Of a stretch of DNA of 33,332 nt, positions 1,403 to 23,132 are shown one piece after another. Numbering within the stretch: the first letter of the stretch is position 1; each line of letters starts with the position of its first letter. The position numbers and the translations under genes were made by a program. The stretch is from the IMG/VR virus record IMGVR_UViG_3300042385_002314, positions 1-33,332 of that record. One strand, 5' to 3'. The stretch comes from a virus. The notes below the pieces were generated by a model, which saw only the letters and a list, made by a program, of their open reading frames with translations, did no database searches and was not told the DNA's origin.

Positions 1403-1422
1403 ATATAAACCCTCCTGTCTAA

Positions 1423-4548: not shown

Positions 4549-4565
4549 ATTCCCTCCTTAATGGA

Positions 4566-4600
4566 GAAAGGGATTACATTGTTTAGATATAACCCCTTTC
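4566..4600 (-). promoter_or_regulatory. Hairpin between the SSB and primase genes
   Basis: On the minus strand GAAAGGGGTTA pairs with TAATCCCTTTC (11 bp including one G-U) around a 13-base loop. It lies between the SSB stop and the primase ribosome site. No T-run follows, so it is not a standard terminator. It could protect mRNA ends or modulate primase translation. Confidence 0.45.
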
Positions 4601-4611
4601 AGTTTACGATA

Positions 4612-5656: not shown

Positions 5657-6575
5657 AGGTATATTGTCCTTTGTCCTTATCATATCCCAACGAAAGTTGC
5701 TTTGCCTTTTCGTGAACAAGTAGTTTTAATTCTTTTTCACTTGTTAAGGCGTGTTCCATTGTCTTAATTCTTTCTACTAACTTATTGATATGTTCTACCG
5801 AGTTTGCCTTGTCAATAAACTGAGTAGTCAACATTGCTTTGTCATATACATCTTTTTCTTTTGCGTATGTTGTTACTTCGTTTTGTAGGTCTTGAATAAC
5901 CTTATTAAATAAATCGGTTAGGAATGTATTAGATGCACCATCTCTTAAATCAGGAATAGTGTATACACCTTTAATTCCGTGAGTTCCTTTGGCGTAATAC
6001 TTTTCGCAGTTTGAGAAACCGATAGTTCTTTGTTTACCAGTCATCTCAACGAAACCGCCTAAGTCCATCATTTGCCAAATGTTATCACGAGTAGAACCTT
6101 CAACGAGTATGCGAAGTTTAGTTTCATCGCCATCTCGTTCTTCTTTGCTGTGAAAGATTACGACTAAGTGTTTGTTTAATCCTTCCACAAGTTTCATAAA
6201 ATCACTAAACTTTCTACTGATAGCACCCCAACCTGCGAGAGCAAGGGTTCCGTCCTTTTGACCGTTCTTTGGATTTTCTAAAATCACTTGCGGTTTTAAC
6301 AAATCAAGCAACTTACCTCCTGTATCAATTACGATTGTATCATAGGTTGATAAGTCGTTAGTAGTTAAATCTTTTACAAGTTCATTGTAGTCATCAACTA
6401 AGATTACATCTTTGCGGTATCGTGCCTCAACTCTATCCACACCTTTATCCAAATCAATTAGAAGTGGTCGTGGTGCCGATAATCCAAGAGTTGTTTTACC
6501 AATTCCTGGGTATCCAGCAATAATCATCTTTAACTTTTTAGAGGAAAAGTTTAACTCATTAGGTTTTTTAAGCAT
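5637..6575 (-). CDS. Sak4-like AAA/RecA-type ATPase (312 aa)
   Basis: This protein belongs to the phage nucleotide-binding family that includes Sak4 single-strand annealing recombinases. It has Walker A GYPGIGKTT at residues 21-29, LLIDLDKG near 38-45, Walker B TIVIDTGG at 80-87, and a RecA-like core with HSKEERDGDETKLRI at about 150-165. The C-terminal third is helical and charged. It lies directly upstream of the PD-(D/E)XK nuclease and the SSB, the usual company of Sak4 proteins. The start at 6575 has AAGGAGG upstream. Confidence 0.85.
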   Translation of the reverse strand: MLKKPNELNFSSKKLKMIIAGYPGIGKTTLGLSAPRPLLIDLDKGVDRVEARYRKDVILVDDYNELVKDLTTNDLSTYDTIVIDTGGKLLDLLKPQVILENPKNGQKDGTLALAGWGAISRKFSDFMKLVEGLNKHLVVIFHSKEERDGDETKLRILVEGSTRDNIWQMMDLGGFVEMTGKQRTIGFSNCEKYYAKGTHGIKGVYTIPDLRDGASNTFLTDLFNKVIQDLQNEVTTYAKEKDVYDKAMLTTQFIDKANSVEHINKLVERIKTMEHALTSEKELKLLVHEKAKQLSLGYDKDKGQYTYVEQQK

Positions 6576-7011
6576 CGTGTTTGTCCTCCTTGCTTGGTTG
6601 AACCTTTACTTCTTTGTCTTGCTCTTCGTCTTGTTGTGCTTGTTTGAATAATTCTCCTTTCTTTGAATTAAGCACTTCAATTAAATCATCGGGGTGCTTA
6701 ATGTTTTCTTTCTTAACAACTTTAAGCACATCGTGATAAGCAGTAATCATAGCATCTATCATCTTAACGAGAACAAATGCTTCCATCGGTCCTTGTGGGT
6801 TGTGAATATTTAAGTCAAGCATTTCTATCATAGACACAAGCACATTGATAATTGATTGTTTACCAAAGTTGCCGATGCCACTAATACTCATAGCACTCGT
6901 GTCCGCATCTTTGTCTTTTAAAGTAATTAACATAACACCTTTTAACACTTGTTGAACGTCAATTTGTTTATCCTTTAACAAATCTTGAATAGTCACATTG
7001 TCTTTTTTCAT
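6568..7011 (-). CDS. Hypothetical early protein (147 aa)
   Basis: No family is recognised with confidence. The middle is helical and hydrophobic-patterned (SIINVLVSMIEMLDLNIH, AFVLVKMIDAMITAYHDVLKVVKK). The C-terminal 30 residues are strongly charged and low-complexity (QQDEEQDKEVKVQPSKEDK), which suggests a flexible tail that contacts another protein. AAGGAGGG lies 12 bases ahead of the ATG, a long but usable spacing. It overlaps the Sak4-like gene by 8 nt and is probably co-translated with it. Confidence 0.65.
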   Translation of the reverse strand: MKKDNVTIQDLLKDKQIDVQQVLKGVMLITLKDKDADTSAMSISGIGNFGKQSIINVLVSMIEMLDLNIHNPQGPMEAFVLVKMIDAMITAYHDVLKVVKKENIKHPDDLIEVLNSKKGELFKQAQQDEEQDKEVKVQPSKEDKHDA

Positions 7012-7038
7012 AAGTTTTTATTACCCTCCTTGGTAAAC

Positions 7039-7272
7039 TTACTCAACGTCTACTCGTTTCATCACTTGGCGAAGTTCAATGTAAGTCATACCCAGTGCAG
7101 TTGCTATTCTATCTATTGCTTTGCGTCCACCTTTGATGTGTCCGTTTTCAATAAGTGAGATAGTAACTCTGGACAAGTTTGCTCTCTTGGAAAGTTCTAA
7201 AATGCTTAGGTTGTTGTCTAAACGCTTTTCTCGTATGAAATCCCCAAACTTTGCCATACCTTTATCAGTCAT
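7039..7272 (-). CDS. XRE-family transcriptional regulator (77 aa)
   Basis: This is a Cro/C1-type DNA-binding protein. Helices at about residues 7-17 (FGDFIREKRLD), 23-30 (SILELSKR), 33-43 (LSRVTISLIEN) and 50-60 form the standard five-helix XRE fold, followed by a short tail. The length is that of a Cro-like repressor without an effector domain. The ATG at 7272 has AAAGGAGG at good spacing. A longer reading to 7443 runs into the upstream gene and crosses the promoter, so I rejected it. A promoter with an 18-bp palindrome over the -35 box lies directly upstream, which suggests autoregulation. Confidence 0.85.
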   Translation of the reverse strand: MTDKGMAKFGDFIREKRLDNNLSILELSKRANLSRVTISLIENGHIKGGRKAIDRIATALGMTYIELRQVMKRVDVE

Positions 7273-8245: not shown

Positions 8246-9514
8246 TTATTTACCTACGATGATGCTACGAAGTTCGGCAAAGTATTTGTTGGAGTGAGTT
8301 AGCGACATTTCGTTGTAAATCATATTCACATCGTCTTTGTCCATACCGCTTAACAATCCAATGTTTATTACATCTTTGAGTGTCCATTTTAATTGAGTTA
8401 AGTCACGGAGGTTAATAATTTCTCGGTAGGAAACAATCTTGCGTTGTCCAGTTTTCTTAACTCCATTACGGAAGGCACGGAGGAAAGCGAGTAACTCGTA
8501 GTCGGTAGTAAGTGAGTTTTCTATCATCTCACTGTAATCAATTTCGATTTGGATAAACCGATTAAGTGTTGCCCCGTCAAGTTGTTGTCTTGTGTTATAC
8601 TCCGAAGTAGCACCTTGTCCAGTTGTGTTACCCGCTGCGATAACCTTAAAGTCCTTGTGTGCTTCCTTGTAACCATTTGGAAAAGTAAAGTAACCATTGG
8701 CGAGTGCTGCGTTGAGTAAAATCACAATTTCAGGATTTGAAGCATCTAACTCATCTAAGAAGTAAACACCGCCATCAGTAAACGATTTGTAGAATTGAGT
8801 TTCTTGGTATTTGCCCATTGCATCAATGAACCCTGTAAGTTGGTAGGGTTGTTGAACCGCATTGTCAAAGTAGAACTTCATTTCAAGTGCCTTGGCAACT
8901 TGCTTGGCGATTACGTTCTTACCACTTCCAGCAGGACCTCGTAAGTAAACCGCTTTGCCGATTTGAGTAAGTTGTAAAATCTTTTCAAATTGTTCGTGGA
9001 CAGTTTCTTTCATCACAACCTTGTCAAGTATTTTCAATTCAACTTGTCGCTTGATTGTTCCATATTGCTCGGCAACTAACTTCTTAACTTGTTCCATTGC
9101 GTTTGCCGCAACTTGTGGTGCATATTGTTCAAGCATTACTTTGGCAAGTGCTTGTTCGATAAGTCCAAGTGTCATCGTGGATTGCGTCGGTGCGTCCTGT
9201 GCTCGTGTAGGTGTAGGAGTAGGAGTAGTAATCGGTGTAACTTCTTTCATAGTTGGTTGTTGTGTTCCTTTCTTAACCAAGTATTCTTTGATAGCAAACA
9301 TATCAAGGACTTTGTAAATGTCATCGGATTTCACATTTACAATTAACTCTTCGACAAGTGGTAATCCGAACTTGTCTATTGCTCGTTTGACAAGCGACTG
9401 TATTGCCGGTGCCCCTCCACGATGGAAAGTTCCGTTCAGTGAGTTAAATCGTTTGACCAATTTTACGATTTGCTCATCGAACCCTTCCGTTGTCGTCTTT
9501 GCTTTGTCTTCCAT
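8246..9514 (-). CDS. MoxR/CobS-like AAA ATPase (422 aa)
   Basis: This is a chaperone-type AAA ATPase of the AAA_5 (MoxR/CbbQ/CobS) group. The N-terminal third is a variable region ending in a threonine/proline-rich linker (TPITTPTPTPTRAQDAPTQ) near residues 97-115. The ATPase core has Walker A GPAGSGKN near residue 192, Walker B VYFLDELD near 248, a sensor-1 AAGNTT, and an arginine-finger region LDGATLNRFIQIEI. It is the first gene after the main early promoter. AAAGGAGGG precedes the ATG. Members remodel or load metals into protein complexes; the substrate here is unknown. Confidence 0.85.
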   Translation of the reverse strand: MEDKAKTTTEGFDEQIVKLVKRFNSLNGTFHRGGAPAIQSLVKRAIDKFGLPLVEELIVNVKSDDIYKVLDMFAIKEYLVKKGTQQPTMKEVTPITTPTPTPTRAQDAPTQSTMTLGLIEQALAKVMLEQYAPQVAANAMEQVKKLVAEQYGTIKRQVELKILDKVVMKETVHEQFEKILQLTQIGKAVYLRGPAGSGKNVIAKQVAKALEMKFYFDNAVQQPYQLTGFIDAMGKYQETQFYKSFTDGGVYFLDELDASNPEIVILLNAALANGYFTFPNGYKEAHKDFKVIAAGNTTGQGATSEYNTRQQLDGATLNRFIQIEIDYSEMIENSLTTDYELLAFLRAFRNGVKKTGQRKIVSYREIINLRDLTQLKWTLKDVINIGLLSGMDKDDVNMIYNEMSLTHSNKYFAELRSIIVGK

Positions 9515-9545
9515 TTTTGACCCTCCTTTATATAGGTCTGTATAT

Positions 9546-9579
9546 ATATTATCATATGGTTAACATATTGTCAACATAT
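9546..9579 (-). promoter_or_regulatory. Main early promoter with three tandem 11-bp operator-like repeats
   Basis: On the minus strand a perfect TTGACA (9569-9574), a 17-base spacer and TAATAT (9546-9551) lie about 30 bases ahead of the ATPase start. The same stretch is built of three 11-bp units, ATATGTTGACA (9569-9579), ATATGTTAACC (9558-9568) and ATATGATAATA (9547-9557). One unit covers each promoter element, one helical turn apart, as expected for a cooperative repressor. Confidence 0.7.
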
Positions 9580-9581
9580 AT

Positions 9582-9610
9582 AAAAAAACCCGATATAATC
9601 GCACTTTTTT
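9582..9610 (-). terminator. Candidate bidirectional terminator (repeat copy a)
   Basis: On the minus strand AAAAAAGTGCGAT pairs with ATCGGGTTTTTTT around a TAT loop (one mismatch, two G-U pairs) and ends in seven T. It lies just before the early promoter and could end late transcription. The core repeats at 9700-9719 with one base changed, where the stronger T-run is on the plus strand. Confidence 0.4.
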
Positions 9611-10085
9611 AGCACTAAAAAAACACCATTTTTACTCATTTTTACCCTATTTTTACCTTGTTTTAGCACTCCTATACACAGAGTGCCAGACCAAAAGTGC
9701 GATATAATCGGACTTTTTTGGTAACCCCAAATATCCGCATTTTATCGCATATATTTAACTATACGCAACTATACACAAAGTTCCACTATGTATACTTATG
9801 TATAGTATGTATCATTTTCTATAAACTATATATATAAAAAAAATAGTATATAGTTGTAGAAAAACCCTACAAAGTATACACTACTATACACTAAATGAAT
9901 TACACTACTTATGTTAATCTATTGGCAAATGTAATGTAAAAGCATTAGTTTTGTATAACCTATTGGCAAAAGTTTACTGCCTATTATTCCTATAAAAAGG
10001 GGTAGTATATTCCTATAAATAGGACTTCATAACACTTTACGAACTCGTTTTGTGACATTTTTTACACTTTACGAAATCTGTTTTA
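9582..10085. other. Repeat-rich AT-rich non-coding region, candidate replication origin
   Basis: About 500 bases contain no convincing gene but several repeat families. A 20-bp direct repeat (9591-9610 and 9700-9719, one mismatch) has a CGAT-ATA-ATCG centre. Three ATTTTTAC units start at 9628, 9638 and 9649. CTATACRC-type units occur at about 9672, 9759, 9769 and 9884, including tandem 10-bp copies AACTATACGC/AACTATACAC at 9757-9776. Paired direct repeats follow: CTATTGGCAAA (9919, 9960), ATTCCTATAAA (9986, 10009) and ACACTTTACGAA (10032, 10064). Iterons plus AT-rich blocks beside replication genes suggest an origin, but this is inference. Late-gene control sites are an alternative. Confidence 0.5.
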
Positions 10086-10952
10086 TTATTCTTCTAATGG
10101 TTTGCCAAGTTCTTTTTCCAATTCGGTCATTATCTCTTTTGTTCTGTCGGTTATGTTAAGCAAAACTGCATACTTGTCTTCCAAGATAACTTCCTTGCCG
10201 AGTTTGACCCCATTAAAAGCACCCAAGGAAAACATAACTACTTTGTGAGCAAACATATAAACTGAAAGCCAAGTGAAGCCGTAACTCATTACAACGATTG
10301 AGGCATTGAAGAACGAGGTTATCATAGTTACCAAGAAAGGCATTGTTGAACGAGATAGACCTTCACGCCCTGCATCAAATGTATATTTTTCTCCCAAGCG
10401 TCTTACAACTTCGCCAAAACTAAATATATTGGCAAACTCTAATTTGTCGTATTTGATTTTAAGCGTATCAAGGTTAATCTTGCCTTTATAATCTGCCATC
10501 TTGTTTTTTTCAAGCAAAGGCATAAGTTCAAGTAAATCAAGTTTTATTTCGTTCCATTTTAATAATTCTTTGGCGTTCTTTGTTGTGCTTAATTTATTAT
10601 CTACGAAATCCATATAAGCGGAACACTTTGCTATCTTGTTGTGCTTTTCAATCTTTTCTCTAAACTCTTTATTAATCTTATTCTTGTAAATGATATTTCT
10701 ATACTTGTTTACGGAGTTAGTCATAAGTTGTATTTTTTCTTCTCCATTGCCAATGTCCATACCGACAGGGAAGTAAATGCTTCTTGCGACTACCCAATTC
10801 ATAACAGAAAATCCGAAATCAAACCAGTTAATTTGTGTAATATCAAAATTAACACTCATTAACATAGTCACAAACATCAAACCAAAAAGGAAAGATGTTA
10901 ATGCTATTGTCAAAAAGGAAGTTGTTTTATTAACTCTTTTTAATTCGTTCAT
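10086..10952 (-). CDS. Membrane protein with central cytoplasmic domain (288 aa)
   Basis: No family is recognised. The N-terminal region has hydrophobic segments at about residues 12-35 and 42-60. A charged helical domain of about 140 residues follows (NKYRNIIYKNKINKEFREK and onward). A second hydrophobic region near 205-250 (FLVTMITSFFNASIVVMSYGF, WLSVYMFAHKVVMFSLGAF) holds two further segments. I chose the ATG at 10952, with AAAGAGG upstream; a TTG at 10964 is an alternative. It is the last gene of the late operon. Its position and membrane topology suggest lysis or superinfection control, but there is no lytic enzyme motif. Confidence 0.6.
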   Translation of the reverse strand: MNELKRVNKTTSFLTIALTSFLFGLMFVTMLMSVNFDITQINWFDFGFSVMNWVVARSIYFPVGMDIGNGEEKIQLMTNSVNKYRNIIYKNKINKEFREKIEKHNKIAKCSAYMDFVDNKLSTTKNAKELLKWNEIKLDLLELMPLLEKNKMADYKGKINLDTLKIKYDKLEFANIFSFGEVVRRLGEKYTFDAGREGLSRSTMPFLVTMITSFFNASIVVMSYGFTWLSVYMFAHKVVMFSLGAFNGVKLGKEVILEDKYAVLLNITDRTKEIMTELEKELGKPLEE

Positions 10953-11394
10953 TTTCTTTATCAACCTCTTTTATAATATTGCGTAATTTATATGCCTTGC
11001 TATTTTGTATAAACTCTGGTAATGGATTTATAAACAACGCAAATGTTTGAAAGATAATAGAACCCATTAAAATAAGTTTTATCTTATCTATGTTCCGTGC
11101 TATAATGCCTGACAAAAAATAAATAATAATCAATGGCAACACAACTTTAATTATTCCCATCAACACATTTTCTAAATATGCGTTAGGTAACGCTTTGGCA
11201 ACGCTTGATAAAATATAATAAACACCACTAAAAACAATAACAATTATAATAATTCCCCAACCGCTTAATTTTTGTGATACAGTTTGCGTAGCACTAAAAA
11301 AATCATATTGAGTTAGGATTAAAACCAGTGGTCCAACTATTGCCAGTAGAACCCAAGAGAGTAATCTAACAAAGAACCACGAGTTTGTTTTCAT
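10930..11394 (-). CDS. Four-segment membrane protein, holin-like position (154 aa)
   Basis: The product has about four hydrophobic stretches, near residues 10-27, 45-62, 78-98 and 106-122, and a charged C-terminal tail (RNIIKEVDKENERIKK). This topology and its place after the tail-fibre genes fit a holin or accessory membrane protein, but I see no recognised holin family. The ATG overlaps the upstream TGA (ATGA at 11391-11394) and its end overlaps the next gene, so the two membrane proteins are probably made together. Confidence 0.6.
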   Translation of the reverse strand: MKTNSWFFVRLLSWVLLAIVGPLVLILTQYDFFSATQTVSQKLSGWGIIIIVIVFSGVYYILSSVAKALPNAYLENVLMGIIKVVLPLIIIYFLSGIIARNIDKIKLILMGSIIFQTFALFINPLPEFIQNSKAYKLRNIIKEVDKENERIKKS

Positions 11395-11862: not shown

Positions 11863-12114
11863 TTATTCTCCTTTGAGCAATTTAGCGATTGCTTCTCTTT
11901 CTTGATTAACTGCTTCTTCAATTTTTTTTAGCGTAATTTTGTATCCGTGTTCCGCTTCTTCAATCTTGTTTTGTAACATTATGATTTGTTGCCTAACTTG
12001 ATGTAACACTTGTTCGATGTCCACAGGAACCCAATTTCTTCCATCGTAACCCAAAAGGTCGCCCTTCTTGGCGTTCTTAAACTCTTTGATTTTAACACCT
12101 AATTGTTGTTCCAT
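11863..12114 (-). CDS. Small coiled-coil protein (83 aa)
   Basis: The N-terminal half contains NAKKGDLLGYDGRNWVPVDI, a short turn-rich motif typical of phage fibre or tail-accessory proteins that describe a GYDGxxW repeat. The C-terminal half is a long amphipathic helix (VRQQIIMLQNKIEEAEHGYK). It may be a small structural trimeric protein. The start at 12114 has AGAGG upstream. A longer reading to 12165 has no ribosome site and would cross a likely promoter region. Confidence 0.55.
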   Translation of the reverse strand: MEQQLGVKIKEFKNAKKGDLLGYDGRNWVPVDIEQVLHQVRQQIIMLQNKIEEAEHGYKITLKKIEEAVNQEREAIAKLLKGE

Positions 12115-12130
12115 ATTTACCTCTAAATAT

Positions 12131-12160
12131 ATTATACAATATGTGTTTGACTTTTTACAA
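12131..12160 (-). promoter_or_regulatory. Weak minus-strand promoter for the small membrane-protein genes
   Basis: On the minus strand TTGTAA (12155-12160), an 18-base spacer and a perfect TATAAT (12131-12136) precede the start at 12114. It overlaps the -35 box of the plus-strand RNA promoter, so the two would interfere. Confidence 0.35.
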
Positions 12161-12176
12161 ACCATAATGCTATAAT
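12147..12176 (+). promoter_or_regulatory. Plus-strand promoter with extended -10
   Basis: TTGACT (12147-12152), an 18-base spacer ending in TGC, and a perfect TATAAT (12171-12176) form an extended -10 promoter. It points away from every gene in the window and has no reading frame behind it, only the hairpin RNA that follows. Confidence 0.75.
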
Positions 12177-12182
12177 GAGTTT

Positions 12183-12267
12183 ACAAGAAGAACCCTACCT
12201 TTCAGTTCTTCTTACCCCCTCCTGGGTCGCCCACTATATCTTGCTCGGTATAGTGGGTCTTTTTTTT
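12183..12267 (+). ncRNA. Candidate small regulatory RNA with anti-Shine-Dalgarno loop (about 85 nt)
   Basis: This RNA would start near 12183 behind a near-consensus promoter and stop at a strong terminator. Hairpin 1 pairs AAGAAGAAC (12185-12193) with GTTCTTCTT (12205-12213), nine perfect pairs, around the 11-base loop CCTACCTTTCA. Hairpin 2 pairs ACCC with GGGT (12214-12227) and exposes the loop CCTCCT, the core of the 16S rRNA anti-Shine-Dalgarno. Hairpin 3 is the terminator. No start codon with a ribosome site is present. Known RNAs with C-rich loops, such as RNAIII in Staphylococcus, block ribosome sites. That role is inferred here. It lies between a fibre-associated gene and the membrane-protein genes. 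Confidence 0.7.
12230..12267 (+). terminator. Intrinsic terminator of the plus-strand RNA
   Basis: CCCACTATATC pairs with GGTATAGTGGG (11 bp, one G-U) around TTGCTC. It is followed by TC and eight T (12260-12267). On the minus strand the hairpin is preceded, not followed, by the T/A run, so it works for plus-strand transcription. Confidence 0.85.
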
Positions 12268-12487
12268 ATTCTTGTTCTTTACTCGTTTTTTCTAATGCGA
12301 GTTTTCTTGCTTCTAAATCGGCAATATCTAATCTAATTTGTTTGCGTTGATTTATCAAAGAAACATAATCATAAGGTATTGCTTCTCCCATCAACTGTGC
12401 TTCAAAACATTTAATGATTTTATAATCATCGTGTTTTAACATATCTAATTTAGTCAAAAGATTAATAACAATTTCTGTATATTTCAT
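12266..12487 (-). CDS. Small helical protein after the fibre genes (73 aa)
   Basis: No family is recognised. The product is helical throughout with a C-terminal coiled-coil-like segment (LINQRKQIRLDIADLEARKLA). It lies one base after the fibre gene with no clear ribosome site, so translation is probably coupled. It may be a fibre chaperone or accessory subunit, by position only. Its end overlaps the terminator T-run of the opposite-strand RNA by two bases. Confidence 0.55.
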   Translation of the reverse strand: MKYTEIVINLLTKLDMLKHDDYKIIKCFEAQLMGEAIPYDYVSLINQRKQIRLDIADLEARKLALEKTSKEQE

Positions 12488-12488
12488 A

Positions 12489-13403
12489 TTAGAAGTTTAC
12501 CCTATCTATACTTCTCAAATACATTATTGAGTTAGTATCACTTCCTGCTGGGGTTCTTGTTTTACCGCCACCAACAATCCAAGATGTGCCACTATAAGCA
12601 CCTGTTGCGTTTGCTTTAATATGCAATAAAGCGATAACATCGCCACCACTAATAACATCAAGTGGTTCTGCAATATAAGTAAGTGGTGCTGACCCTGCGT
12701 CTGGTTTGACCGTAACATAAGTTACAAGTTCGGTTGATGTGGTTGTTCCCCAAACTACTCTTAAACGAGTTCCAGGTAAACCAGTCGTTCCAACACCTGT
12801 CGTAGAAGCAGAAGCACTAAATGTAATCGTTTGCGTCCCACCACTTGCGATGGTTAAAGGCGTAGAGTTTGTATACAAGTTCGTAAACTTCGCTTCGGTA
12901 GTTAATACACCGCTTGTAGTAGTCACAACTGCTAATCCACTTGTTGAACCAATAGCACCTGCGTTAGTAATATTTCCGTGAAGGTGTCCAGATGTTGCTA
13001 AACCTGAAATCAATGTTCCACTATCTTGAATAAGTTTTCCAGTCGTTCCATTAAATGTAGCAATACGAGCAGTTACTGAGGAAGCAGGACCTACAACATC
13101 GCCACCACCTGCTGGGGTAGTCCAAGTTCCATCATTGCGTAAGAAGGTTGTTGTTCCAGTTCCAATCGCTAATGCCGAACGAACAATTTGATTTGAACCA
13201 TTTACAAGAACTAATTTTTGACCTGATGCGACAGCGGTATCAGCAGTAATTGTTCCAGTATCAGTAATGTTGCCGTGCGAGTGTGAGGTAGGCGTAAAAG
13301 TAGTAGGTTTGCTTTCTACTTGTGTCCACGTAGTAGTTGGATATAATGTATCAACATCTACTCCGTTATTTCGTTTTAATGTAATATCAAGATTTGATGC
13401 CAT
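12489..13403 (-). CDS. Tail fibre / receptor-binding protein (304 aa)
   Basis: The protein is rich in Gly, Thr, Ser and Asn with a repetitive beta-strand pattern and glycine clusters (TTPAGGGDVVGPAS, SGHLHGNITNAG). This is typical of trimeric phage fibres. The first 20 residues (MASNLDITLKRNNGVDVDTLYP) match the start of the neighbouring 459-aa protein and probably attach the fibre to the baseplate. SHSHGNI and SGHLHGNI form an internal histidine repeat that could bind metal in a trimer. The C-terminal region, after about residue 170, is the likely receptor-binding part. AGGGAAAAAC precedes the ATG. Confidence 0.7.
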   Translation of the reverse strand: MASNLDITLKRNNGVDVDTLYPTTTWTQVESKPTTFTPTSHSHGNITDTGTITADTAVASGQKLVLVNGSNQIVRSALAIGTGTTTFLRNDGTWTTPAGGGDVVGPASSVTARIATFNGTTGKLIQDSGTLISGLATSGHLHGNITNAGAIGSTSGLAVVTTTSGVLTTEAKFTNLYTNSTPLTIASGGTQTITFSASASTTGVGTTGLPGTRLRVVWGTTTSTELVTYVTVKPDAGSAPLTYIAEPLDVISGGDVIALLHIKANATGAYSGTSWIVGGGKTRTPAGSDTNSIMYLRSIDRVNF

Positions 13404-13415
13404 AGTTTTTCCCTA

Positions 13416-14795
13416 TTAATCAACGTCAAAGATAATATCGCCTAATGTAGTTCCTGTCGTGGTGTCGTAATAAATAAATGGACTATTAACCCAACTTGGT
13501 GCTACGCCATTTCCACCCGAAACAAGTGTTTGTTTAACTTGCGAAGTAGAACTTGCTAAACCCGAACCAGTCGGTGCGTAGAAAGAAGGAGAAGTAGATG
13601 CACTGCCGTTTAAGGTCACAGCGGGGATTTGTCTTGGTAAGGTCACAAAACCTTTTTCACTTGATAATTCTAATGCTCTTTGAGTTTCAGTAGAAGTATA
13701 ACCAATTTGTAATCCACCACGAGTTCCGTTCGCAGCGAGTGGCAATGAGTAGTTATTATAAGTAGCAGTAGTCACAGCGGTAACGTGCCCAAAACCATCA
13801 ACGGTAATAGATGCAATACCTGCCGAACCTTGTGCGCCAATTAAACTCGAAGTATCAGTGTGTGTAATGCGTATAGCGTCTGTGGTAGTCGAAACTTCTA
13901 CATCAACCCCTGCACCATCAACAATCGTTAAACTATCGGCAGTTGTATCAGCAGCGGCAGTTCCAGTAGAAGCCCAACTATGTCCACTATCAATTCCAGT
14001 AACTGAAACATTACCGAAGTCGTTTGATTGAGCAGTTAAATAAGTATTTGTATCTAACGAAGCATCATTAACTCCATTTACACGGATAAAACCTGGTGTT
14101 CCTGTCGTTAATATTGAAGCAACATCAGTTAATCCGTCATTATGAGGTTCATAAACATCGGTGTGTAAGTGGTTGCCATAAGCAATCTTTGTTCCAGATG
14201 TGCCCATTAAACCATTTAAGATGCCGTCAGTAATAACAGCACTTCCAGTAGTTGCTACGGAACTTGAATTGGATAAAGTAACAATACCTTTTAACGCAGT
14301 CGTTGCATCTTCATAAGTGTTATTAACAATAGCAAATGTAAAACTATAAGGTGTGCCAACTGTTCCAGCACCTGTAATTGCCACGAGAATAAACCAATCG
14401 CCAACTTCAACAGTTTCGCTTAATTGCGAACCATTAGCACCTTCTTCCGATACATTAAATCCACTTGTAGTAGCATATACGCCACCTACATCTAAACTTC
14501 CAGTTCCACTACCAACGCTAACCAAAGCAGTTGCTACCCAATAATAACCGATAGCACTACGATTGTTTGTTGTTGCATCTGCTACCGCAGCAAGACCAAG
14601 GTTTCTAAGGTCGCTATTAACTCCAACAGAAGCAAAAAAGCGTAAACTATCAAAAACTGAGTTTGGTAATAAACCTACGCTAATTTTTCCACCAGTCAAA
14701 AGTCCAACAACTTGTTCTGGTATCGTCTTGGGATAAAGCACGTCATAATCGGTGCCGTTATTCCTTTTTAATGTAATGTTGATATTTGAAGCCAT
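13416..14795 (-). CDS. Tail fibre / baseplate receptor-binding protein (459 aa)
   Basis: Composition and repetitive strand pattern are those of a phage fibre. The N-terminus (MASNINITLKRNNGTDYDVLYP) is shared with the downstream 304-aa fibre. A middle region has SNDFGNVSVTGIDSGHSW and SIVDGAG-like beta repeats that resemble fibre shaft modules. The end (YYDTTTGTTLGDIIFDVD) resembles short modules that close several fibre chains. AAAGGAGA precedes the ATG. It lies next to the BppU-like proteins and the coiled-coil protein, so the group probably forms the adsorption apparatus. Confidence 0.7.
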   Translation of the reverse strand: MASNINITLKRNNGTDYDVLYPKTIPEQVVGLLTGGKISVGLLPNSVFDSLRFFASVGVNSDLRNLGLAAVADATTNNRSAIGYYWVATALVSVGSGTGSLDVGGVYATTSGFNVSEEGANGSQLSETVEVGDWFILVAITGAGTVGTPYSFTFAIVNNTYEDATTALKGIVTLSNSSSVATTGSAVITDGILNGLMGTSGTKIAYGNHLHTDVYEPHNDGLTDVASILTTGTPGFIRVNGVNDASLDTNTYLTAQSNDFGNVSVTGIDSGHSWASTGTAAADTTADSLTIVDGAGVDVEVSTTTDAIRITHTDTSSLIGAQGSAGIASITVDGFGHVTAVTTATYNNYSLPLAANGTRGGLQIGYTSTETQRALELSSEKGFVTLPRQIPAVTLNGSASTSPSFYAPTGSGLASSTSQVKQTLVSGGNGVAPSWVNSPFIYYDTTTGTTLGDIIFDVD

Positions 14796-14798
14796 ATT

Positions 14799-15284
14799 TT
14801 ACTTCTCCTTTAATTGTTCACTAAGTAACACTTCTAATTCTATCGCCACTTCTAATCCGCCCTGAGTTTGTTTTAGGAACGAACGGAAGTTTGCTACATA
14901 ACCATTTAATGCGTTAACAATTTTTTTATATTGTGTTTCAAGTTTCTTAAACGCTTCTTCATTGCCGTTAGCACGACCGATTTCGTTTTTTAATTTGCCT
15001 TGTAGTTCTTGATTTTCTTTTTGGATTTTGTCTTTCAACGCAACCATTTCGTGATACAATTTATCTTTTTCTTCGACAGATTGTGATAGATGTTGTTGTT
15101 TTGCCAACTCTTGTTGTTGCTTGTTTAATTCTTTTTTTAACGCAATAATTTGTTGTTCTGCGTTTGAAACTTGATTTCTCAAAACTTCAATGTGCATATC
15201 CTTTGCGTTAATTGCTTCGGCAAGGTGCTTTTGTTCCTCAACCAATTTAAGCAATTCATCTTTCTTCATTTCTTTATATTCCAT
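14799..15284 (-). CDS. Coiled-coil structural protein (161 aa)
   Basis: Nearly the whole protein is a heptad-like coiled coil rich in Glu, Lys and Gln (residues 10-110), followed by a short less regular segment (LNGYVANFRSFLKQTQGGLE). It could be a rod or spacer of the baseplate or a fibre assembly factor. TAGGAGA precedes the ATG. The function is inferred only from its place between BppU-like and fibre genes. Confidence 0.6.
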   Translation of the reverse strand: MEYKEMKKDELLKLVEEQKHLAEAINAKDMHIEVLRNQVSNAEQQIIALKKELNKQQQELAKQQHLSQSVEEKDKLYHEMVALKDKIQKENQELQGKLKNEIGRANGNEEAFKKLETQYKKIVNALNGYVANFRSFLKQTQGGLEVAIELEVLLSEQLKEK

Positions 15285-21932: not shown

Positions 21933-23132
21933 TTATGCTTTTTTGACTATGGTTAACTTGCTCGCAGCGATAGCGTTTCCACTTGCATCTGCGATAGCAA
22001 CAATAATCGTAACATTAGTTGAGGCAGCGATTTCCGCACCTGGAACTAAGGTCGTATAGGACGAGAGTGAAGCACCGTATGCTGGTAACGCTAATGAACC
22101 AACAGCGGTTGTTGAGAGTAAGTATTTAAGCGTTCCACGAACACCAGCGGCATAGATGTCATTGATGATGGTTCCGTTAGTAGCAGCACCAGCGACTGTC
22201 GTAAATGAAACTGGGGATAAGTAGGAAGTCACACCACTTACTGAAACATAAAGAGCAACACGTTTATTTTTAGGAACAAAGATGTCGTGATATAAACGGT
22301 GGTTAAGTTTGAAACCATCGAAATCTTGGACGACTTCTGGTCCAAATACTTTTAACACAGAGTGTTTCTTAATTGGCAGCGCAGCATTAAAGTGAACGAG
22401 CATAAAGTTCATTAACTTAGCGGCAGCGGTTGGGAAGAAACCATTTTGGTTAAAATCATAAGCAGTATAGAAACGACGAGCAGGAACTGGGATAATTGGG
22501 CGACCTTCCCACTTGGTTACTGTGAAAGTTAAACCAGCAGGAGTAGTGAAATCTTCTTGATAAATGCGTTTTGCTAATTCGGTAGTGTTACGGATTTGTG
22601 TCATAACAGCGTTAGAAACATACAAAACTTGTTCATCTTCTGGGATTTCTAAATCGGCAAACTTTTCAAATGCCAAGTTGAACTTAGCAATAATTTCGTT
22701 AGCACCGATAGTTTCGGTAACAACTTGGTCAGCATATGCTTTTGAGAAAAGCGTAGATAAGCGGTAAGCGTCAACTTCTGGAACTTCTTTGGTGCGGACG
22801 AATTGGTCTAATAAGTTACCAACAACAAGTCCTTGGGTTTCTTCATCGTCCATTTGGTCGACTTTGAATTGTTTGCCTCGGTCTTTTGTTAAGGTGTGAC
22901 TTTCCCAGTTGATGTCCACAGAACCTGCGGAGTAACCAGCGTTAGATTGGTCAGCACGGATATAGTCGCCTAAGCCGTCCATTTCGATAGATGGGATAAG
23001 CACAGTTTTAGCACTGGTAAACTTTAATAAACCAGAGTTGCGTTCAAGAATTGCAGTAACTGCTTCTTTCGCAAAGATTTCGTCTAAGATTTCAGGGGAG
23101 TATTTTTGAATTAATCCAATTTTGTTTGGCAT
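21933..23132 (-). CDS. Major capsid protein, HK97-like fold with C-terminal extension (399 aa)
   Basis: This is the shell subunit. Residues 1-300 follow the HK97-like pattern: an N-terminal helix region MPNKIGLIQKYSPEILDE, an E-loop-like VLIPSIEMDGLGDYIRAD, long helices (FNLAFEKFADLEIPEDEQVLYV), and a P-domain ending near KLNHRLYHDIFVPKNKRVALY. From about residue 300 to the end there is a beta-rich Ser/Thr/Ala region (GVTSYLSPVSFTTVAGAA and onward). It looks like an added Ig-like or decoration domain. No long N-terminal scaffold domain is visible. TAGGAAAAA precedes the ATG. Confidence 0.8.
   Translation of the reverse strand: MPNKIGLIQKYSPEILDEIFAKEAVTAILERNSGLLKFTSAKTVLIPSIEMDGLGDYIRADQSNAGYSAGSVDINWESHTLTKDRGKQFKVDQMDDEETQGLVVGNLLDQFVRTKEVPEVDAYRLSTLFSKAYADQVVTETIGANEIIAKFNLAFEKFADLEIPEDEQVLYVSNAVMTQIRNTTELAKRIYQEDFTTPAGLTFTVTKWEGRPIIPVPARRFYTAYDFNQNGFFPTAAAKLMNFMLVHFNAALPIKKHSVLKVFGPEVVQDFDGFKLNHRLYHDIFVPKNKRVALYVSVSGVTSYLSPVSFTTVAGAATNGTIINDIYAAGVRGTLKYLLSTTAVGSLALPAYGASLSSYTTLVPGAEIAASTNVTIIVAIADASGNAIAASKLTIVKKA

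Follow-up and report, generated by a model that had tools for sequence, protein, structure and literature searches.

A predicted phage-encoded small RNA gene with Shine-Dalgarno-complementary hairpin loops in a genome coded on the opposite strand

The virus record IMGVR_UViG_3300042385_002314 (33,332 bases; a bacterial virus), analyzed here over its whole length (the window), contains a stretch that an earlier note read as a plus-strand small RNA (sRNA) gene in a genome whose genes all lie on the minus strand. Is such a gene present, and what would its RNA do? The ORF list agrees with the note about strand, as every frame longer than 152 aa in the whole window is on the minus strand. The right part of the window encodes terminase, portal, and capsid proteins, and the left part is a replication module with an AAA ATPase, a Sak4-like protein, SSB, primase, and resolvase. 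The labels “early” and “late” used below were assigned from this gene content. The primase is 43 to 45% identical to primases of Enterococcus, Listeria, and Lactobacillus-type phages, and other window proteins have their nearest matches elsewhere or none. As a hint to the host, the primase sequence alone points to phages of Gram-positive bacteria. No integrase was found among the window proteins scanned against PHROGs or Pfam.

Two noncoding or repeated regions were observed in passing. A 46-bp repeat (83% identical; 13363-13408 and 14755-14800) surrounds the start of each of two consecutive tail-fibre-like genes, which suggests duplicated N-termini. A 571-bp noncoding stretch (9515-10085) runs from the AAA ATPase gene to the membrane-protein genes, carries CGATATAATCG at 9591 and 9700, and is a possible origin or control region; within it, 9785-9895 matches the relative G002 (see below) at another place and in inverted orientation.

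The plus-strand transcription unit

The complete promoter described in the earlier note is present: TTGACT (12147-12152) is followed by an 18-nt spacer ending in TGC and by TATAAT (12171-12176), an 11/12 consensus match with the TG of an extended -10 element (Table 1). Two whole-window scans, overlapping by 101 bases, returned 63 and 55 promoter-like sites; 11/12 was also reached by two minus-strand sites (4814 and 1451), both without the TG. The sRNA would start 7 nt after the -10 element, as inferred from sequence. Folding recovered the two hairpins that had been proposed, one of 9 bp with the loop CCUACCUUUCA and one of 4 bp exposing CCUCCU. The terminator hairpin (12229-12258) and its eight T (12260-12267) were also as described, except that the stem has 12 pairs, not 11. 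In the scan it is the strongest terminator on the plus strand.

Other readings of the same letters were set aside. The absence of a coding frame was confirmed: the 85 nt contain no ATG, and the sole GTG and TTG lie within the terminator hairpin and offer no usable frame, and a coding RNA was dropped on this basis. The hairpin was rejected as a minus-strand terminator since the stem has no T run after it on that strand, and a CsrA sponge was dropped since the GGA-bearing loop is on the minus strand. The stop codon of the 73-aa gene is located where the sRNA ends.

Table 1 Features of the predicted sRNA locus and its candidate targets
Feature	Position	Strand	Basis or remark
Divergent promoter-like site, TTGTAA-18-TATAAT	12131..12160	-	overlaps sRNA promoter
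sRNA promoter, TTGACT-18-(TGC)TATAAT	12147..12176	+	extended -10, 11/12
Predicted sRNA, ~85 nt	12183..12267	+	promoter-to-terminator span
Hairpin 1, 9 bp, loop CCUACCUUUCA	12185..12213	+	folding
Hairpin 2, 4 bp, loop CCUCCU	12214..12227	+	folding
Intrinsic terminator, 12-bp stem and T8	12229..12267	+	terminator scan, folding
73-aa gene, phrog_17180 (function unassigned)	12266..12487	-	downstream of tail-fibre-like genes
83-aa protein gene	11863..12114	-	first of four closely spaced genes
Candidate target: primase leader, AACUGAAAGG and SD GGAGGG	4549..4611	-	63/63 conserved in G002
Candidate target: gene 6568-7011, ribosome site AAGGAGGGU	7012..7038	-	27/27 conserved in G002
Candidate target: AAA ATPase gene 8246-9514, ribosome site AAGGAGGGU	9515..9540	-	GGAGGG, pairing
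Candidate target: gene 1202-1402, ribosome site CAGGAGGGU	1403..1420	-	GGAGGG, pairing

Promoter-like and terminator-like strings, each taken as a class, were not more frequent in the window scans than in shuffles. The combination was then sought as a unit, defined as a promoter of at least 10/12 followed within 60 to 230 nt by a perfect stem (10 or more pairs) and T7. The window has one such unit, and 0/150 Markov-simulated 33-kb sequences have any. The predicted sRNA has a minimum free energy of -31.0 versus -14.8 ± 2.6 for its shuffles (z = -6.3; 0/200 as good). Scans, folding, and simulation together confirm the promoter-hairpin-terminator unit at 12147-12267. With its own promoter, an intrinsic terminator, and no coding frame, the locus has the sequence features of an intergenic sRNA gene, and we consider it very probable that the gene is real.

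Conservation and distribution

An exact 43-mer search of viral_contigs identified two further contigs, L001 (record G001) and L002 (record G002). G001 equals the window over the stretches compared (99% for a terminase fragment) and, being identical, provides no independent evidence. G002 is a relative with permuted sequence (90% identical overall, 85% near the sRNA locus), and the gene anatomy described above is conserved in this one diverged relative. The -35 hexamer (6/6) and TGC-TATAAT (9/9) are kept along with 13/15 bases of the rest of the spacer, and hairpin 1 (29/29), hairpin 2 (14/14), and the terminator stem (30/30) are unchanged, loops included. Over 12185-12258, 73/74 nt are identical, the single change being in the linker (12228); elsewhere in the predicted sRNA the only substitution is at 12184, 5' of hairpin 1. 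Between the -10 element and hairpin 1, 3/8 bases differ, and G002 has 3 additional bases 3' of the terminator stem. The four flanking genes are 83 to 91% identical. The earlier note had made conservation of promoter, loop, and terminator the test of its proposal, and they are conserved as far as two distinct sequences, the window and G002, allow. The hairpin stems are identical in these two sequences and show no covariation. Genome-wide, 12% of 76-nt windows (3315/27532) are equally conserved, and two nearby coding stretches are as conserved as the sRNA. The conservation agrees with a function of the predicted sRNA and falls short of proving it. G002 also carries an unexpected phage cargo, an NMT1/THI5-like ABC substrate-binding protein plus permease (L016:5383-7092, ~22.3 to 24.0 kb of the record).

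Searches beyond these records were negative. Looser loop patterns, searched in viral_contigs and, for a single pattern, in genome_contigs, matched apart from L001 and L002 only places that lack the structure (L011, L012, and L102-L106). An RNA model run on L102-L106 gave one weak match at another place in L105 (12.8 bits, E = 0.19) that was taken as chance. At least 83 terminase relatives were confirmed, and 80 of them, mostly fragments and distant, were kept for the RNA model, which matched 0/80: 0/50 records in a run without a positive control and 0/30 others in a run that found both positive controls, G001 and G002. Matches to window proteins were confined to the part right of 16863 in the nearest terminase relatives, G003 and G004, and to primase, SSB, and terminase in G005, so that the syntenic place of the sRNA was not seen in them. 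The neighbour genes searched showed no wider synteny, and neither the window nor G002 contains a second copy of the sRNA. No Rfam family matched the window above its gathering threshold; the best match below threshold was ctRNA_pT181 (19 bits versus 56, E = 2.5), and identity with a plasmid ctRNA was rejected on this basis. No RNA like this one was named in the literature titles and abstract openings searched, which is not proof of absence. Because the wider searches gave no further structured homologue, the sRNA appears, within what was searched, to be confined to a small phage group.

Pairing of the loops with ribosome sites

The loop of hairpin 1, CCUACCUUUCA, is the complement of GAAAGG and, with one bulged A, also of AGGAGGGU. 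The loop of hairpin 2, CCUCCU, is the complement of AGGAGGG and is also able to pair with AGGAGGGU. Computed opening costs are ~0 for loop 1 and ~4.7 kcal/mol for hairpin 2. The anti-Shine-Dalgarno (anti-SD) mimicry proposed in the earlier note stands as far as loop complementarity to the SD goes; the 85-nt sRNA contains no TCCC and thus lacks the UCCC signature shared by RNAs of the RNAIII/RsaE/LhrC type. Ribosome sites are enriched in the top 5% best-pairing coding-strand windows (14/43 and 11/43 for the two loops), as would be the case for any anti-SD sequence.

The motif GGAGGG has six occurrences on the minus strand and none on the plus strand. One is the complement of the sRNA, one is intragenic, and four are ribosome sites of early genes, namely those for primase, the AAA ATPase, and two proteins of unknown function. 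Either GGAGGG or GAAAGG is present in 6/15 early, 0/19 late, and 0/9 other ribosome sites (early versus late, Fisher P = 0.004, a post hoc comparison chosen after seeing the data), in a count for which gene starts were picked by script and the start at 7272 of an HTH gene was missed. That gene (7039-7272, minus strand) encodes a 77-aa HTH_3 regulator of the Cro/CI type with the SD GAAAGGAGG. Early SDs are also somewhat stronger on average (P = 0.05). G002 retains GGAGGG at all three of the ribosome sites that can be aligned. A G follows GGAGG at 4/9 sites in the window versus 5/43 in pieces of terminase relatives, and at only 2/10 in G002 by the same scan, which lacks one kept site because the gene behind that site was not recovered there.

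At the four GGAGGG sites, predicted duplexes reach -14.0 to -17.1 kcal/mol with hairpin 2 and -10.6 to -12.4 kcal/mol with loop 1 before opening cost. The opening costs of both partners shrink these values; for hairpin 2 at the primase site, -14.9 is set against +7.5 for the mRNA and ~+4.7 for the sRNA. Among 3000 dinucleotide shuffles, 433 reach the overall count of 7-nt matches (11/43 ribosome sites) and 193 reach the early count (7/15). Because such controls, at about 0.06 to 0.2, leave the target pairing weak, the targets stay predictions, and the early genes named in Table 1 are offered tentatively, with fairly low confidence. The longer perfect matches of the sRNA, of 11 and 12 nt, fall within coding sequence. 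The AAA ATPase ribosome-site region is absent from the G002 alignment; G002 keeps the site at 1403..1420, without a recovered gene behind it. A script-picked gene start at 1758 ranked third in pairing (-15.5 kcal/mol, -6.1 after mRNA opening) and was left unlisted since this gene start is doubtful.

The primase leader offers a second contact. Its AACUGAAAGG, 37 nt upstream of the GGAGGG SD, matches the complement of loop 1 plus its 3' flank at all 10 nt, and the minus strand has this 10-mer only here and in the sRNA complement. Of 3000 shuffled RNAs, 607 also have a leader 10-mer, and 416 have one plus a 7-mer near the start, a lenient control because a single long match close to the start may be counted twice. 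The leader folds into a 14-bp hairpin (z = -3.6) in which the primase site is buried. When the fold model keeps the loop-1 site unpaired, the unpaired fraction of GGAGG falls from 15% to 1%, since CCCUUUCUCC is then freed to cover it; even in the free leader fold, though, most of the SD is paired. Binding of loop 1 would repress primase in this model, which we regard as a lead, not a result. In these predicted folds, two alternative hairpins, the one of 14 bp and an SD-covering one (UUUCUCC/GGAGGGA), make the leader resemble an independent two-state element of translational control.

Proposed action, alternatives, and related systems

We infer that the sRNA would be transcribed, that it would block SDs, and which targets it would have and when. 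On balance, it is probably a phage-encoded, trans-acting sRNA whose action is to block SDs. A host sigma-70-type RNA polymerase would transcribe the intergenic RNA of ~85 nt and its own terminator would end the transcript; the redundant CU-rich loops of the two hairpins could then pair with strong SDs, AGGAGGG(U) and GAAAGG, and block translation initiation. The best candidates in the phage would be the genes for primase, the AAA ATPase, the 147-aa and 66-aa proteins, and the HTH regulator (7039-7272). Late genes, with SDs that are weaker on average, would be spared, and host mRNAs with strong SDs would be further possible targets. Late read-through transcripts would carry the complement of the sRNA if they pass the locus; scans between 12183 and 15000 found no minus-strand terminator. 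Just 3' of the major head protein gene (21933-23132), a strong minus-strand hairpin of 13 pairs followed by T5 (21907-21878) may act as a partial terminator and would then reduce both read-through and transcription of the tail genes. A fuller scheme, which we consider improbable, would make the RNA a riboregulator that sorts genes by kind of SD. In that scheme, the loops would silence early GGAGGG(U)/GAAAGG genes, and loop 1 would take the 5' arm of the primase leader hairpin, freeing CCCUUUCUCC over the SD and locking the leader in an SD-sequestered state, until late read-through transcripts with the perfect complement titrated the sRNA.

A minus-strand promoter-like site at 12160-12131, absent from the earlier note, gives rise to the main rival of SD blocking. 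Both hexamers of this site are kept in G002 (6/6 each), where the spacer is one base shorter. Transcription from this site would cover four closely spaced genes, the 83-aa gene and three others, in a putative operon. None of the four proteins has a Pfam or PHROG match, and two are hydrophobic (encoded at 10930-11394 and 10086-10952, minus strand), with four and two hydrophobic segments. The weaker minus promoter shares DNA with the strong plus promoter, so that only a single polymerase would be bound at a time, and the two promoters probably exclude each other. The plus unit might then mainly occupy DNA and time the 83-aa and membrane-protein genes, with the sRNA as a short, terminated by-product. 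The placing of the two -35 elements within 14 bp, the conservation of both promoters in G002, and the hydrophobic segments, which fit timed, lysis-like expression, all favor this explanation; it accounts neither for SD-complementary loops nor for hairpins and loops that are unchanged (43/43 nt) beside a -10-to-hairpin-1 stretch changed at 3/8 bases, and we judge it fairly unlikely. That the RNA acts mainly on host mRNAs, as a shut-off of strong-SD translation, or on another host molecule, and not on phage mRNAs, is consistent with loops that are general anti-SD sequences and with phage targets that are weak against shuffles, and is in our view unlikely. A chance promoter beside a terminator from another context, with no functional RNA, would fit a conservation that is not outstanding genome-wide. 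The lack of the unit in all 150 simulated sequences, the fold z score, and the retention of hexamers, loops, and terminator stem in G002 speak against such an accident, which is very improbable.

Filed by its sequence, the predicted RNA fits the broad kind of trans-acting, SD-blocking small RNAs, here in a phage and with predicted targets. By analogy, its working would be like that of the LhrC sRNAs and the csRNAs, and it is not a member of either group. The LhrC family belongs to the short size class of sRNAs. As described for this Listeria family, redundant CU-rich sites, partly in loops, bind SDs (PMC4132741). The RNA here is also short with redundant CU-rich loops able to cover an SD; it differs from LhrC in lacking UCCC and a CU-rich site in the terminator loop, in being single copy in the window and G002 and phage-encoded, and in having no Rfam match (PMC4132741). 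The csRNAs of streptococci are described as intergenic RNAs of 51 to 202 nt with a promoter, a terminator, and an SD complement, a likeness to the locus here; their genes have a CiaR repeat (TTTAAG-N5-TTTAAG), and an unpaired region between stem-loops complements the SD and AUG, whereas the SD complement here is in hairpin loops (PMC3091779). No exact TTTAAG occurs in 12100-12180, and CAU, the complement of AUG, is absent from the 85-nt sRNA. RNAIII, RsaE, SprD, and FsrA are given as UCCC-motif SD-binding sRNAs of Staphylococcus aureus or Bacillus subtilis (PMC4132741); like them, the predicted RNA has a C-rich stretch that would meet the SD, which folding places unpaired in its loops.

Phage RNAs provide further comparisons. 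The c4 RNA of P1/P7 is described as pairing around a ribosome site, likely through sequences in loops, and differs in hitting one specific mRNA, ant (PMC12197685). In the main text of that review of phage-derived sRNAs, the words Gram-positive and Firmicutes are absent. Phage K is described as having intergenic plus-strand sncRNAs, as here, with targets that are predicted only (PMC9241854). A Listeria phage paper describes abundant intergenic transcripts without terminators or UCCC motifs and suggests that selection in phages may act against UCCC motifs (PMC12282133). In the predicted phage RNA gene described here, CU-rich loops complementary to SDs come with a dedicated terminator, and the named candidate targets are testable with ordinary reporters.
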